Assembly: GCA_944372345.1 (NCBI GenBank)
Contig: CALVYT010000038.1
Location: 124,001 to 188,000 of the forward strand
Reading direction: 5' to 3'
Source of the DNA: an uncultured Clostridia bacterium
GTDB lineage: Bacteria > Bacillota > Clostridia > Christensenellales > Pumilibacteraceae
DNA: 64,000 bases
Part shown: positions 2,602 to 17,851 of the stretch, piece by piece
Layout: every line of letters begins with the position of its first letter
Numbering within the stretch: the stretch's first letter is position 1
Program-made: the position numbers and the translations under genes
Notes under the pieces: model-generated
The model's input: the letters and a program-made list of their open reading frames with translations, nothing else
What the model was told of the DNA's origin: nothing
Database searches by the model: none

Positions 2602-3729
2602 ATGATTTTTCTTTATGTTATCCTCGCCATTCTGATGCTGCTTCTGATGATAACCATACACGAAGCGGGGCACTACGTCGCGGGGAAAGCTCTCGGCTTC
2701 GGCATAAACGAATTTTCGATAGGGTTCGGCCCTAAGCTGCTGTCGCGTCGGTTGCGTTCGGGAGAGGTCTTTTCCGTCCGCGCTCTGCCGATAGGCGGGT
2801 TCTGTTCTTTTGTCGGCGAGGACGACGCGGGAAGCGCGAAGCCGACCGCCGATCCGTTCGGCGAAGAGAGCGAGTCCGGGCGTAAAGCCGAAGTGGACGC
2901 TGCCGGGCGTAAAGAAGCGGGCGTGGAAGCGGCGAAAAGCGTCGCATTCGGCGCACAGAAGCCGTGGAAGCGGATCATAGTGCTTGCCGCGGGACCCGTG
3001 TTCAATCTGCTGTCAGCGTTCCTGTTTTCCTTTATCTACATTCTCGCCGTGGGATATGCCGTGCCCGTAGTCACGGAGACAGCCGTCGATCCCGCGACGG
3101 GCGAGCCGTATGCGTCGGCGTTTGAAACGGGCGACGTCATAGTCGCGGTGAACGGCGAGGACATAACTTTTCTCTCCTCCGCGTCCGAACTCATTGCAGA
3201 AACCTCGGACGTCGGAACGACGGTGTTCACCGTCGAGCGCGACGGGAAGAGGACGGACATTACGGCGGAAAAGCATTTGTCGGAGGACGGATACGTTTTC
3301 GGGCTGACGATGACGTATGAAACGCGCAGTGTCGGCGTTCTGCGTGCGGCGGGGTACTGTGTCCCGTATACGTTCGAGCTTTCGTGGGCGGTGATACGGT
3401 CGTTCGGGATGCTGCTGACGGGCGGAGTGCCGTTTACGGACGTGACGGGTCCCGTCGGCACGGTGGCGGCGATCGCGGAATATGCGGCGGTCGACAGTCG
3501 GTATCTGCTGTTGTTCCTGCCGCTGATAGCGAGCAATCTGGCGATATTCAATATACTTCCGATACCCGCGCTTGACGGCGCGCGCATCGTATTCGCGATA
3601 ATAGAGTGGATAAGGCGCAAGCCGATAAACGCAAAGGTCGAGGGCGCGATACACGCCGTGGGACTGCTCGTGCTGCTGGCTTTCGTACTTGTCGTCGATA
3701 TTGTCGGAATGATCTCGAGGTTACTATGA
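2602..3729 (+). CDS. rseP: Site-2 intramembrane zinc protease (RseP/RasP family)
   Basis: Membrane metalloprotease of family M50 that cuts transmembrane substrates such as anti-sigma factors and signal peptides. The first helix carries the zinc motif HEAGH (residues 20-24), and the C-terminal helix carries NILPIPALDGARI, whose Asp near residue 325 is the third ligand. A PDZ domain lies between, containing the FETGDVIVAVNG ligand-groove region. Residues of about 72-112 form a charged, Ala/Gly-rich insert with two GRK-containing segments, just where other homologues have a short loop before the WKRI sequence. Its stop overlaps the ispG start. The usual downstream proS is absent. Confidence 0.95.
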   Translation: MIFLYVILAILMLLLMITIHEAGHYVAGKALGFGINEFSIGFGPKLLSRRLRSGEVFSVRALPIGGFCSFVGEDDAGSAKPTADPFGEESESGRKAEVDAAGRKEAGVEAAKSVAFGAQKPWKRIIVLAAGPVFNLLSAFLFSFIYILAVGYAVPVVTETAVDPATGEPYASAFETGDVIVAVNGEDITFLSSASELIAETSDVGTTVFTVERDGKRTDITAEKHLSEDGYVFGLTMTYETRSVGVLRAAGYCVPYTFELSWAVIRSFGMLLTGGVPFTDVTGPVGTVAAIAEYAAVDSRYLLLFLPLIASNLAIFNILPIPALDGARIVFAIIEWIRRKPINAKVEGAIHAVGLLVLLAFVLVVDIVGMISRLL

Positions 3730-4772
3730 TCAAAAGAGCGGTAAAAGCGGGACGGGTCACGATAGGCGGCGGAGGCGCCGTCACCGTCCAGTCTATGACT
3801 AACACGGATACCGCGGACATCGAAGCGACGTCCGCGCAGCTTTCCGCGCTTGAAAAAGCGGGGTGCGACATAGCTCGGCTCGCCGTCCGCGACAAGCGCG
3901 ACGTCGAAGCATGCGGAACTTATATCGAGCGTTTTGGTATGCCGCTCGTGGCGGACATTCAGTTCGATTACAGGCTCGCCGTCGCGTGCGCGGACATAGG
4001 CTTTGCGAAAGTGCGCTTTAACCCCGGCAATACGTCGTCCGCCGGCGTGCGCGAGCTCGTCGCGGCGTGCAAAGCCAACGGCTGCCCCATAAGGATAGGG
4101 ATAAACGGTGGCTCGCTCGAAAAGGACATCAAAGCGAAGTACGGCGGAGTGACGGCGGACGGGCTTGCCGAAAGCGCGATAAGGACGGTAAGGCTGCTCG
4201 AACGCGAGAGCTTTTCGGATATAGTCATCTCCGTAAAGGCGAGCGACGTCCGTATGACGGTGGACGCCTATACGAAGCTGGACAGGCTGTGCGGATATCC
4301 GCTGCATATAGGCATAACGGAGAGCGGTGCGGGCGAGGACGCCGTCGTCAAATCCGCCGTAGGCATAGGCAGTCTGCTGCTTGCGGGCATAGGCGATACG
4401 CTGCGGGTATCTCTGACGGGCGATCCCGTCAGGGAAGTGGAAACCGGGCGGCGCATTCTGCGTGCGGCGGGGCTGGAAAAGGATTACGTCGAGATCGTGT
4501 CCTGCCCGACCTGCGCGCGCTGTTTTTACGATCTCGAATCGCTCGTTGCAAAGTGCGCGAAACTGACGGCGGGAGTGAACAAGCGGCTCAAAATAGCCGT
4601 GATGGGCTGCGTGGTGAACGGACCGGGCGAAGCCTCGGACGCCGACCTCGGCATAGCGGGCGGAAAGGACAAAGCGGTGCTGTTCCGCAAGGGCGGCGTG
4701 ATCGGCACTTATCCGACGGCGGAAGCGGAAGAGAAATTTCTGGCTATGACAGAGGAGCTCGTGCGTGGATAA
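3726..4772 (+). CDS. ispG: (E)-4-hydroxy-3-methylbut-2-enyl-diphosphate synthase
   Basis: Iron-sulfur enzyme of the MEP pathway converting MEcPP to HMBPP. The ATG at 3726 overlaps the rseP stop as ATGA; a start 120 bases upstream would lie inside rseP and adds nothing family-like. The 348-residue protein begins with the TIM-barrel blocks IGGGGAVTVQSMTNTDT and NPGNTSS. It ends with the [4Fe-4S] ligands CPTC (Cys260, Cys263), Cys295 in MGCVVNGPGE, and Glu302. Its length matches the short bacterial form. It is coupled to rseP upstream and overlaps the PolC-like gene downstream by 8 bases. Confidence 0.97.
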   Translation: MIKRAVKAGRVTIGGGGAVTVQSMTNTDTADIEATSAQLSALEKAGCDIARLAVRDKRDVEACGTYIERFGMPLVADIQFDYRLAVACADIGFAKVRFNPGNTSSAGVRELVAACKANGCPIRIGINGGSLEKDIKAKYGGVTADGLAESAIRTVRLLERESFSDIVISVKASDVRMTVDAYTKLDRLCGYPLHIGITESGAGEDAVVKSAVGIGSLLLAGIGDTLRVSLTGDPVREVETGRRILRAAGLEKDYVEIVSCPTCARCFYDLESLVAKCAKLTAGVNKRLKIAVMGCVVNGPGEASDADLGIAGGKDKAVLFRKGGVIGTYPTAEAEEKFLAMTEELVRG

Positions 4773-6261
4773 GTTCAACGAAAAATTCCTGTCGGCAAAC
4801 CCGGATCTCTGTTTCGTGCGGTTCGTCGCCGCGAAGATAGACGCGGATAACGACAGGGTGACGCTGACCGCCGTATACGACAGGGCGCGCGAAGCGGAGT
4901 TCACGGCGCAGCGGGATAAAGTGCGTTACGCCGCGGCGGCTATGTTCCCGCCGTTCGCGTCCGTGCTGGTGGAAGCGTCGCCGTCGCGCTCGGGCAGCAG
5001 GGAACTGCTGAACCTGTCCCGCGATTTTTTGCAGTCGGAAAGCGCCTATATCGCATCCGCCGCGGACGACGGCAATATCTCCGTGCTTATGAGCGATCCG
5101 CCGTCCGTGACTCTCATTCTTACGCCCGCGGTCGCAGAGTACGCGCGTGAGGAAGATGTCTGCGGGCGGCTTAAAGAATACATAGACGCGCGCACGTTCG
5201 CGGACGTCACCGTGAAGATCAGGCTCCGCGAGGAGAACAAAGAGGAGATAGCCCGCACCCTGACGGAACGGGTATACTCTCCGCGCTTCGCTTACGAGCG
5301 CAGCGGAGAAGGCAGAACGATAGACCCGGCGGGCAGAACGCCTATGTGCGGAGAGCAGATCGCGGGTCCTGCAAAATACATATGCGACTGCGTTACGCCG
5401 GAGTATACCGTGGTCTACGGCGCGCTGCTCGATCTCCGCGAGCGGGAATACACGCCCAAAAAGCCGAAGCCGGGGGAGACCACGCGCAAATTCGCGACGT
5501 TCGTTCTCGACGACGGTACGGGCAGGATCCGCTGCGTCTGGTTCCCGACCGCGAATACGAAGGACGCGATAAAATACCTCGAAAACGGCTCGCACTATCT
5601 GATGGCTGGAAAGACGGACTACGACGAGCGTATGAACGACGGCAGTCTGCAGCTGTCGGTAAGGCGTTTTACGGGGTGCGAACGCACTGAATTCGAGATC
5701 AACAAGGTCGTAAGACTGCCCGACCCCGATTATCGCTTCGTGCGCCCGCAGCCGTATACGTCGCTGTCGCAGTCGTCGTTGTATGAGGAGAGCGAAGCGC
5801 CGCTGACGGACGAACCTCTCGTGATCGTATCTCTGATGACGGTGTCGGACAGCAAGGTGAAACCGGGAGAACTGATAGAGATCGCGGCGGTAAAGATAGC
5901 CGACGGCAAGATATGCGAAACGATGAGTTCGCTGATATGCCCGCACGGCAGGATGACGGACGAAGAGCGTTCGCGGGCGGGGCTGGTCGCGTCCGATCTG
6001 AAAGGCAAACCGTACTCGGAGCAGATACTGCCCGACTTTTACAGATACTGGAACGGGCATACCGTCACGGCGTTTCCGTTCGACGCGACGGCGGCTCTTT
6101 TGCGGTCGTATCTCGATAAACTGCATATCCCCATGCCGGAAACGGCGGATATGACGCTGTTCGCTCCCGCGCCCGATCTGCGCCGCGCCTGTCCGAAAAA
6201 CACGCGCCGCGCGCTGCCGATCGCGCTCGCATATGCAAAATTTTTAACAAAACAGCATTAA
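4765..6261 (+). CDS. PolC-like protein: N-terminal and OB domains plus a degenerate exonuclease domain, no polymerase
   Basis: The gene occupies the position where Clostridia carry polC (between ispG and rimP), but it encodes only 498 residues instead of about 1,400. The start is GTG at 4765, inside the end of ispG. Residues 1-200 resemble the PolC N-terminal region. Residues of about 205-315 look like the OB fold (RKFATFVLDDGTGRIRCVWF). Residues 350-495 align by eye with the PolC proofreading exonuclease. IEIAAVKIADGKI is kept, but the first acidic motif reads VSLMTV where DxET is expected, and the last reads RRALPIALAYAKF without the His and Asp. No PHP or polymerase motifs follow. It is probably a non-catalytic DNA-binding or clamp-related remnant; this function is inference. 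Confidence 0.75.
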   Translation: MDKFNEKFLSANPDLCFVRFVAAKIDADNDRVTLTAVYDRAREAEFTAQRDKVRYAAAAMFPPFASVLVEASPSRSGSRELLNLSRDFLQSESAYIASAADDGNISVLMSDPPSVTLILTPAVAEYAREEDVCGRLKEYIDARTFADVTVKIRLREENKEEIARTLTERVYSPRFAYERSGEGRTIDPAGRTPMCGEQIAGPAKYICDCVTPEYTVVYGALLDLREREYTPKKPKPGETTRKFATFVLDDGTGRIRCVWFPTANTKDAIKYLENGSHYLMAGKTDYDERMNDGSLQLSVRRFTGCERTEFEINKVVRLPDPDYRFVRPQPYTSLSQSSLYEESEAPLTDEPLVIVSLMTVSDSKVKPGELIEIAAVKIADGKICETMSSLICPHGRMTDEERSRAGLVASDLKGKPYSEQILPDFYRYWNGHTVTAFPFDATAALLRSYLDKLHIPMPETADMTLFAPAPDLRRACPKNTRRALPIALAYAKFLTKQH

Positions 6262-6265
6262 ACGC

Positions 6266-6294
6266 TTGCAATAGTCCCGCAATTATGGTAAAAT
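6266..6294 (+). promoter_or_regulatory. Sigma-A promoter of the rimP-nusA-infB operon
   Basis: A -35 box TTGCAA (6266-6271) and a -10 box TAAAAT (6289-6294) are separated by exactly 17 bases, just after the PolC-like stop codon. Transcription would start near 6301, leaving a leader of about 60 bases that contains the hairpin at 6319-6344. Confidence 0.75.
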
Positions 6295-6318
6295 TTATTT
6301 ACTTGAATAGTTAAGCTA

Positions 6319-6344
6319 TAAGAGTGGACTGCAGTCCGCTCTTA
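6319..6344 (+). promoter_or_regulatory. Leader hairpin upstream of rimP
   Basis: A near-perfect 26-base inverted repeat, with arms TAAGAGTGGACTG and CAGTCCGCTCTTA and one G-T wobble, sits between the promoter and the rimP start. It is followed by only four T residues and then the weak GGGAG ribosome site, so it is not a convincing terminator. From memory, hairpins with GAGTGG/CCACTC-like arms are seen before rimP in other Firmicutes, so this may be a conserved regulatory leader of the operon. Confidence 0.6.
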
Positions 6345-6361: not shown

Positions 6362-6826
6362 ATGAGCGAACTTACGGACAAGATAGCGGAAGCGGTGGAC
6401 GGACGCGTGCGCGCGCTCGGCTGCGAAGTCGTCGACGTGGAACAGCGCAGCGAATACGGCGAAAAGCATATCACGATATACGTCGACAAAGTGCCGGACG
6501 GCGTGAGCCTTGACGACTGCGAGCGCATACATTACGAGATCGAGCCTGTGCTCGACGAACTCGATCCGACGGGCGGCAAGCCATACGTCCTCGAAGTTTC
6601 GTCGCCTGGACTGGACCGTCCGTTCGTAAAGCAGCGAGATTTCGAGCGCAACTACGGCAAAGAGGTGGAAGTCAGGCTCTATGCGCCCGTAAAAGGCGTC
6701 AAGGTATACGAAGGCGTGCTCGTCGAGCGCACGGACGGATATGTGCTGATAACGTGCGGCGGCGAGGACGTCAAAATAGAAAACAACCGAATAGCGGCGG
6801 TGCGTCCGCTCGTCAAATTCGACTGA
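6362..6826 (+). CDS. rimP: Ribosome maturation factor RimP
   Basis: Cytosolic factor for 30S subunit assembly. The 154-residue length is typical. The N-terminal alpha/beta domain ends in the hallmark LEVSSPGLDRPFVKQRDF, and the C-terminal part (from about residue 95) is the SH3-like barrel with a VKGVKVYEGVLVE strand pair. ATG at 6362 follows a short GGGAG. It is the first gene of the rimP-nusA-ylxR-ylxQ-infB-rbfA operon, served by the promoter at 6266. Confidence 0.95.
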   Translation: MSELTDKIAEAVDGRVRALGCEVVDVEQRSEYGEKHITIYVDKVPDGVSLDDCERIHYEIEPVLDELDPTGGKPYVLEVSSPGLDRPFVKQRDFERNYGKEVEVRLYAPVKGVKVYEGVLVERTDGYVLITCGGEDVKIENNRIAAVRPLVKFD

Positions 6827-6843: not shown

Positions 6844-8037
6844 ATGGTCAACAAGGAATTCTTTGCGGCTCTCGACGATCTCGAGAGAGAGAAGAAGATA
6901 CCCAAACAGGTATTTATCGATGCGCTTCAGGATGCGCTCGCGCTTGCATACAAAAAGCAATACGGTACGCCCAAGGCGATAGAGGTGCTGCTTCTTCCCG
7001 AACGCAGCGCGATAAAGATCAACGCATATCTGACCGTAGTCGAGGAAGTGGAGGATAAAGATACCCAGATCAGCCTCGAAGACGCAAAACTCATCGACAA
7101 GAAATACAAGGTCGGCGACAGGATAACCGAGGAGATCGACAGCAAGGAATTCGGCAGGATAGTGGCGCAGAACGCCCAGCAGGTCATAATGCAGAAGCTG
7201 CGCGACGTAGAAAACAGCGTCGCCTACGAGGAGCTTGCCGAAAAGGAAGGCGATCTGCTCACCTGCGTGGTCAGGCGCATAGACGGAAAATACGTTTACG
7301 TCGAGATCAAGAAACTCGAAGCGACGCTCGCTCCGAACGATCAGCTCCCCAACGACAAGTTCTTTGTCGGCGAGCGTATAAAGGTGTACGTCAGGCGGAT
7401 ACGCCAGGGCAGCCGCGGACCTATGATACAGGTTTCGAGAACGGCTCCCGGGTTCGTCCGCAAGCTGTTCGAGGCGGAAGTCCCCGAGATCAAGTCGGGG
7501 CAGGTGTCCATTATGGGCGTCGTCAGAGAGCCCGGATTCCGTACCAAAATGGCGGTTTACAGCGAAGATCCGAATATCGACGCAGTCGGCGCGTGCGTGG
7601 GCAACCGCGGTCTGCGCGTCAGCAGCATAGTGGCGGAGCTCGGCGGAGAGAAAATAGAAATAATTCCTTGGTGCGAAGATATGCTCGAATTCATCGCGCG
7701 CGCTCTTTCGCCCGCAAAGGTCATAATGGTCGAAGCCAACGAATTTGAACGCAGCGCGAAAGTGGTCGTCAAAGACGATATGCTCAGCCTTGCGATAGGT
7801 CGCGACGGTCAGAACGCCCGCCTTGCCGCACGGCTCACGGGCTGGAAGATAGACGTTCGTCCTTATTCGGCGTATATGAAGCAGAAAGCGGAAGAGGAAG
7901 CCGCAGCCGAGGAAGAAGCGGCGGCAGAAGAAGCTCCCGCCGTTGAAGATACGGCGGACGCCGTAGAGACAGCCGCGGCAGCTGAACCGACGGACGGCGC
8001 GGAAGCCGTAACGGACGCGGATACGACGGAGGAATAA
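6844..8037 (+). CDS. nusA: Transcription termination/antitermination factor NusA
   Basis: RNA polymerase-binding factor that modulates pausing, termination and rRNA antitermination. ATG at 6844 follows CGGAGGAGTG. Domain order is the N-terminal polymerase-binding domain (1-125), an S1 domain (about 130-200), then two KH domains marked by REPGFRTKMAVYS, VGACVGNRGLRV and AIGRDGQNARLAARLTGWKI. The last 50 or so residues are a low-complexity Ala/Glu acidic tail rather than the acidic repeats of proteobacteria. The 397-residue length is normal for Clostridia. Confidence 0.97.
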   Translation: MVNKEFFAALDDLEREKKIPKQVFIDALQDALALAYKKQYGTPKAIEVLLLPERSAIKINAYLTVVEEVEDKDTQISLEDAKLIDKKYKVGDRITEEIDSKEFGRIVAQNAQQVIMQKLRDVENSVAYEELAEKEGDLLTCVVRRIDGKYVYVEIKKLEATLAPNDQLPNDKFFVGERIKVYVRRIRQGSRGPMIQVSRTAPGFVRKLFEAEVPEIKSGQVSIMGVVREPGFRTKMAVYSEDPNIDAVGACVGNRGLRVSSIVAELGGEKIEIIPWCEDMLEFIARALSPAKVIMVEANEFERSAKVVVKDDMLSLAIGRDGQNARLAARLTGWKIDVRPYSAYMKQKAEEEAAAEEEAAAEEAPAVEDTADAVETAAAAEPTDGAEAVTDADTTEE

Positions 8038-16897: not shown

Positions 16898-17851
16898 ATG
16901 AGAATAGAAAGGATAAAAGCCTTGCCGCTCACGAAAAAACAGGCGTTGGAATATGCCCGTATCGTCGTCAGACAAAAATCGGGTAAAAGCGCCGTAAAGG
17001 TCAGGTATATGGGCGGCGGTTCGTTCGGACGCGCCGTTGCCGTTCAATGCCGTGACGGGCAAAAACTGGTCGTTAAGTTTTTGCGGGCGAAGGATATGAT
17101 GGAAAAAGAGGTCAATGACCTTAAACTGCTCGCAGACCATAGCTCGATCAGAGTGCCTGCCGTACTCTTTGCGCGGCTTGGCGACGATGAGATCCCCGTG
17201 GACTGTTACGGAATGGAACAGATCGAGGGAAAGAGCGCGCTTTTTGCGCTCGGTATGCTTTTCCTCGGCAAAAAACGCAGAAAGGAATTTGCCGAGAAAG
17301 TCGCCTCGGCATTGCACGTCATCCATTCCTGCAAAAATGATAAGTTCGGCGATACGATGAACGCCGACTGCGACAGCTGGCTCGACTACTACCGTCCTTT
17401 TGCCGCAGAGGTGATGCAAAAGGCGGAGGAATATTTTGCGGCGGGGAAGCTGAAGAAAAAGATCGTTCTTGCCATGCGCGCGGCGTGGGAAAAGTTCGAC
17501 GTCATATTCTCCGAAGAAGTCGGCGAAGCCTGTCTGATCCACGGCGACCTCAACGTCGGCAATATTATGGTCGGCAAAGGCTATAAGATCACAGGGTTCA
17601 TCGATCCGCTCAATTCGGCATATGCGGACAGGGAGTACGACTTGTTCCAGTTCGACAACCTGACGGGCAAGCGGTTTTTTCTGCGCGAAACGTATATCGA
17701 AAAATACGGAGCGAGCCGTTACTGCAAGCAGAAACTTGCTTTTTACGGGCTTTGGAATGAAGTCTATTGCTATATCAGATCGGGCGTTCTGATAAGTCTT
17801 ATAATGGATCCGCTCGTAAAGAATATGAACAAAAGGCTGAAAGAGTTATGA
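16898..17851 (+). CDS. Aminoglycoside phosphotransferase/choline kinase-like small-molecule kinase
   Basis: Protein-kinase-like fold enzyme of 317 residues that probably phosphorylates a small hydroxylated or amino compound; the substrate cannot be read from sequence. ATG at 16898 follows AAAGAGG. A glycine-rich loop (YMGGGSFGRAVAV), a lysine in LVVKFL, the catalytic-loop LIHGDLNVGNIM and the metal-binding GFIDPLNSAYADREYDL are all present. It overlaps the following hydrolase start by 4 bases, suggesting a two-gene unit. The pair is not part of a conserved operon here and may be accessory. Confidence 0.75.
   Translation: MRIERIKALPLTKKQALEYARIVVRQKSGKSAVKVRYMGGGSFGRAVAVQCRDGQKLVVKFLRAKDMMEKEVNDLKLLADHSSIRVPAVLFARLGDDEIPVDCYGMEQIEGKSALFALGMLFLGKKRRKEFAEKVASALHVIHSCKNDKFGDTMNADCDSWLDYYRPFAAEVMQKAEEYFAAGKLKKKIVLAMRAAWEKFDVIFSEEVGEACLIHGDLNVGNIMVGKGYKITGFIDPLNSAYADREYDLFQFDNLTGKRFFLRETYIEKYGASRYCKQKLAFYGLWNEVYCYIRSGVLISLIMDPLVKNMNKRLKEL

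Follow-up and report, generated by a model that had tools for sequence, protein, structure and literature searches.

The window analysed here is a 64,000-nucleotide stretch of contig CALVYT010000038.1 from an uncultured Clostridia bacterium, and we placed its source genome in the genus Candidatus Protoclostridium by locus matching. Among its genes, we focused on a PolC-derived stub at positions 4765-6261 of the plus strand, the strand on which all features of the window described below also lie. The gene begins with GTG, its start shares 8 bases with the 3' end of ispG (3726-4772), and it encodes 498 residues with no internal stops. Downstream are rimP (6362-6826) and nusA (6844-8037). The stub thus occupies the polC slot in the order rseP-ispG-stub-rimP-nusA. 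The order that we surveyed is one which we take to be, probably, the GTDB order Christensenellales; throughout it the arrangement RseP-IspG-X-RimP-NusA is found whether X is a stub or PolC, as far as the contigs reach and the neighbours were detected. The initial annotation had the gene expressed from the uppS-ispG operon. Cotranscription with the upstream operon is possible given the 8-base overlap with ispG, and it remains no more than plausible in the absence of expression data. In the gap between the stub and rimP (6266-6344), we also observed a promoter-like TTGCAA-17-TAAAAT with an extended TG and then, still before rimP, a hairpin of 11 pairs and its T-rich tail (6319-6344). A regulated leader of their own for rimP-nusA is conceivable, and promoter and hairpin matches of this kind occurred at a near chance number in our scan.

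The protein is made up of three domains of PolC: an N-terminal domain (NTD; residues 1-178, 4765-5298), an OB fold (residues 184-312, 5314-5700), and an exonuclease-fold domain (residues 349-498, 5809-6258). When each domain of the window genus was compared by hhalign with its PolC counterpart, matches were obtained at E=8e-7 for the NTD, E=2e-7 for the OB fold and E=5e-18 for the exonuclease domain, whereas off-target control comparisons gave E>=0.19. The order-wide stub NTD matched the PolC NTD at E=2e-12, and in a profile-profile comparison the stub family aligned to the full-length PolCs of the order over 495 columns (E=3.6e-72). The OB fold was also recognized by Pfam PF01336 (E=6.5e-8). 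Single-sequence searches of Pfam, NCBIfam and the PDB returned only the OB fold and a weak exonuclease match, the best solved relative of which is the exonuclease of Thermotoga maritima PolC; the NTD is detectable by profile comparison alone. An AF2 model of the window protein had a mean pLDDT of 92.2, with values mostly of 90-96 in the NTD. The exonuclease domain of the model matched PolC and DnaQ structures in Foldseek, and the top PDB match by E-value was PolC 9qpc (E=1.1e-12, 378 alignment columns). By profile, model and Foldseek alike, the window protein has an exonuclease fold.

The remaining parts of PolC are missing. A linker (residues 313-348, 5701-5808) stands where PolC has PHP-N, shows no similarity to it (E=0.22), and the chain stops after the exonuclease domain. 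Profile comparison gave no match between the stub and the polymerase part of PolC, and the NCBIfam polC model scored the stub far below its cut-off. The C-terminal QLSLF clamp motif of PolC is not present in the stub, and a clamp-type motif sits in the linker. Elsewhere in the order, stubs L150-L154 of lineage f15 have frames of 560-714 residues rather than the usual 500-550, which may represent either extra N-terminal sequence or merely an upstream open frame.

Alignment of the exonuclease-fold domain revealed that all five DEDDh positions are substituted in the window protein. In ExoI (5830-5838) the catalytic Asp and Glu are S356 and M358, in ExoII (6088-6090) the Asp is T442, and in ExoIII (6205-6222) the His and Asp are R481 and I486. 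Across the order, all five catalytic residues are intact in 71 of the 94 stubs. The 23 dead stubs fall into three clades, comprising every stub of the window genus (13/13) and of the lineages f20 (7/7) and f17 (3/3), and each clade is supported at 99-100% on the marker tree described below. With these computational results, we conclude that independent losses of the exonuclease site occurred on three occasions. Within the window genus, Met or Leu always stands in place of the Glu, and the substitutes at the remaining positions vary between species.

Frames were intact in 12 of the 13 window-genus genomes with the gene, and the thirteenth was split at contig ends. For five close pairs, dN/dS of the dead exonuclease domain was 0.05-0.21, and in most comparisons third codon positions changed 2 to 5 times more often than first and second positions. 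Because dS is high and near saturation, the dN/dS figures are approximate. Within the genus, conservation is lowest in the NTD (mean identity 0.40); a 73% identical protein is encoded by Ca. P. stercorigallinarum. We conclude that the dead exonuclease domain is still under purifying selection.

We found no other PolC in the genome, which is 95.3% complete; a PolC model hit only DnaE1, a standalone exonuclease and the stub. DnaE1 (1205 residues) is the sole Pol III alpha of this genome; its PHP motif (HHDHEHCDH) is complete, and it also has a clamp motif (QLSMF). We compared 20 DnaE1s, drawn from genomes with a dead stub, a live stub or PolC: the PHP motif was intact in all of them, and the C-terminal clamp motif was nearly always present. 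Because DnaE1 retains these features, we take loss of the stub exonuclease to be tolerable.

In our survey of the order, full-length PolC was found in 49 genomes and the stub in 94 genomes that were fetched plus 10 by score only, with no genome carrying both. Because 13 species of the window genus, as well as genomes across the order, carry the short form, it cannot be a fragment produced by this assembly. Class-wide, in 393 genomes, full-length matches to the stub were confined to the one order, whereas other orders matched with full-length PolC. Dead stubs that have diverged strongly would escape the cut-off used class-wide (E<=1e-66), and the window's own stub just missed it. On a marker tree built from IspG, RimP, NusA and RseP, one branch with 100% support parted 22 PolC genomes from 85 stub genomes; therefore one truncation suffices, and we infer that it ran from PolC to stub from the presence of PolC in other orders. 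A PolC genome, G057, lay among the stubs in a first marker tree, where only 29% of its columns were filled; once its loci were complete, it grouped with the other PolC genomes. We conclude that the truncation is common to many families of the order, and that the dead active site is limited to three lineages.

These results bear on most of what the initial annotation had claimed. A truncated PolC-like frame in the polC slot was borne out by gene order, the open reading frame and the profile alignments. Retention of the NTD, OB fold and exonuclease-like fold with loss of PHP and polymerase was upheld domain by domain, with negative controls, as were the replacement of the exonuclease acidic residues and the intact frame of what is no simple pseudogene. 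Neither of the two outcomes that would have refuted it was met, since similarity to PolC extends beyond the OB fold to the NTD and exonuclease and the short form is conserved in related genomes. The suggestion of a specialised paralogue failed, because the genome has no other polC and gene order marks the stub as the reduced polC itself. The description of the gene as truncated and catalytically dead is refined here: these were separate events, with the truncation order-wide, the exonuclease site kept in most of the families that share it, and the site lost later, three times.

The linker contains a clamp-binding-type motif, QSSLY, at Q336-Y340 (5770-5784). The linker Gln is conserved in 86 of 94 stubs, including all 23 dead ones, and the next best Gln column reached 22. 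The consensus among stubs is Qx[SND][LFMI][FYL]. When we searched for the pattern Q..[LIMFV][FYLMI], it was found at the linker site in 75 of 94 stubs, compared with 0.3% per position elsewhere in the same proteins. For comparison, the published clamp-binding pattern is QL[S/D]LF, with positions 1, 4 and 5 mattering most (PMC3919608). All 12 of the order's PolCs examined carry a C-terminal motif of the type Q[LVIM][ST]LF (e.g. QLSLF, QVSLF or QISLF), and in the order's PolCs the OB fold runs straight into PHP with no clamp motif between them. Both structure models show comparatively little order in the linker, with lower pLDDT at about residues 331-340 in the window protein, which fits a clamp-type motif because such a motif is expected in a flexible region. 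The conserved QxxL[F/Y]-type motif of the stub thus lies in a flexible stretch. This backs an initial guess that the protein binds the clamp, and binding itself is inferred, without binding data. The window genus has the full motif in 13/13 stubs, with Tyr and not Phe as its last residue, and f17 and f20 have only partial motifs (QIGF, QMNFV); given these endings, clamp affinity in the three lineages may be weak or altered. A few stubs, among them L144 and L145 of lineage f6 (genomes G041 and G160), have a live exonuclease site and a linker without a clamp-type motif.

All 14 window-genus genomes encode a second DEDDh protein, a standalone exonuclease about 200 residues long whose active site is intact (LDVETPN...HNAEFD...HHNALFD). 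In the genome of the window it lies at 1538-2143 on the minus strand of locus L114, corresponding to 17064-17642 of that genome's contig 28. The nearest NCBIfam model is PRK06195 (Pol III epsilon), matched well below its cut-off, and no conserved clamp motif was found in the protein. A frame adjoining this gene resembles an AbrB/SpoVT-type regulator. Four f20 genomes with dead stubs have a similar exonuclease; f17 has a different small exonuclease, which can accompany live stubs too. No exonuclease of the window-genus type reached a comparable score in live-stub genomes of the tree, and weaker relatives occur in PolC genomes. The standalone exonuclease is present in 17 of 23 dead-stub genomes versus 0 of 62 live-stub genomes of the tree, in two lineages only, and the association is not significant on the tree. 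Replacement of the dead site by this enzyme is an attractive idea that we did not adopt, because it rests on two lineages without reaching significance on the tree.

Taken together, we consider it likely that the gene encodes a PolC-derived, clamp-tethered accessory protein, here a pseudo-exonuclease, with clamp binding inferred and not shown. Homology, synteny, motif conservation, purifying selection, the threefold loss of the active site and, on the marker tree, a single truncation are shown computationally. From these we propose that an ancestor shared by many families of the order had its PolC stripped of PHP and polymerase, leaving NTD-OB-exonuclease, and that DnaE1, with its PHP site intact, would have been left as the only Pol III alpha. 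The new linker would then have gained a beta-clamp-binding motif, replacing the one at the extreme C-terminus of PolC. For most lineages we infer a stand-alone 3'-5' exonuclease that is tethered to the clamp and works beside DnaE1. Candidatus Protoclostridium and the two other lineages lost the catalytic residues and retained the fold, OB domain and linker Gln, the features that selection maintains in live and dead stubs alike, and the dead forms would most likely be non-catalytic, holding the clamp and single-stranded DNA or a fork partner. In this model, the simplest role common to all stubs would be clamp tethering, which forms with a live site would supplement by exonuclease activity. Binding to the clamp, DNA or DnaE1, a place in the replisome, the adaptor role and the lack of activity are all inferences for which there are no binding or activity data. 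A bolder reading is that a replicative polymerase became a non-catalytic sliding-clamp adaptor under strong selection, through one truncation and repeated site loss; we regard this as about equally likely to be right or wrong.

We considered several alternative explanations. The first is a role outside replication, in which the protein, with its KH-like and OB domains, acts on translation or RNA and uses the linker motif to bind a partner other than the clamp. The setting in a translation and transcription gene cluster, with likely co-transcription near rimP-nusA, is consistent with this idea, and OB folds bind RNA too. We consider it unlikely, however, since full-length polC has the same context and the linker motif matches the clamp consensus. 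A second possibility is that the protein is still a nuclease, acting through other residues or a residue from a partner. The domain fold and the selection on it are retained, but all five DEDDh positions are replaced, with the Glu always Met or Leu throughout the genus while other substitutes vary by species, making this very unlikely. The third is that the stub is a decaying remnant, a polC dying stepwise through loss of the polymerase and then the exonuclease until it is functionless in the genus. The catalytic parts were indeed lost stepwise, and conservation within the genus is lowest in the NTD; nevertheless, the intact frames, the low dN/dS even in the dead domain, the retained linker Gln and the confident fold make decay very improbable, and on grounds of selection and conservation we rejected a decaying pseudogene. 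A stub-first origin, with PolC formed later by addition of PHP and polymerase, is simpler in that the three-domain form lacks PHP, but it is all but excluded by the confinement of full-length stub matches to one order among the 393 genomes of the class, with PolC in the others, and by the position of the PolC exonuclease inside PHP.

Surveys of Clostridia describe genomes with PolC and DnaE1, with DnaE1 only, and with a PolC lacking the exonuclease (PMC3919608, PMC12926913), and one published survey discarded fragments without a polymerase site (PMC3919608). We found no description of such stubs in the full-text literature searched, which did not cover subscription papers and supplements. The stubs appear to represent a third fate of PolC besides retention or loss. 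By the account of PMC12926913, it is the PHP domain of Pol III alpha subunits that is inactivated and not the DnaQ proofreader; in contrast, the PolC-derived DnaQ domain was inactivated three times in the stubs. They provide a natural experiment on the function of the PolC NTD and OB fold without a polymerase, and also bear on the uncharacterised PolC plus DnaE1 systems of Clostridia. In addition, a PolC-like annotation in such genomes need not imply that ibezapolstat and other PolC inhibitors have a target there.

Compared with full-length PolC, the stub has the NTD, OB fold and exonuclease in the same sequence and shares the genomic slot; it differs in lacking PHP, the polymerase core and the C-terminal clamp motif, in having a clamp-type motif in the OB-exonuclease linker, and, here, in its dead active site. 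The live stubs resemble DnaQ/epsilon as separate DEDDh-fold proteins with a clamp-type motif beside DnaE1. Unlike DnaQ/epsilon, stubs have a PolC NTD and OB fold and carry the motif before the exonuclease and not after it, DnaE1 binding is only conjectural, and the window protein is without catalytic residues. The exonuclease-lacking PolCs (Timinskas et al. 2014, PMC3919608) are another case of domain loss in clostridial PolC, but the loss is the opposite one, because those proteins retain the polymerase and drop the exonuclease. The dead stubs also recall ImuB, an inactive polymerase-family member (PMC12926913), as a dead replication-related protein retained as a partner, although ImuB belongs to another family and a polymerase domain is entirely missing from the stub.
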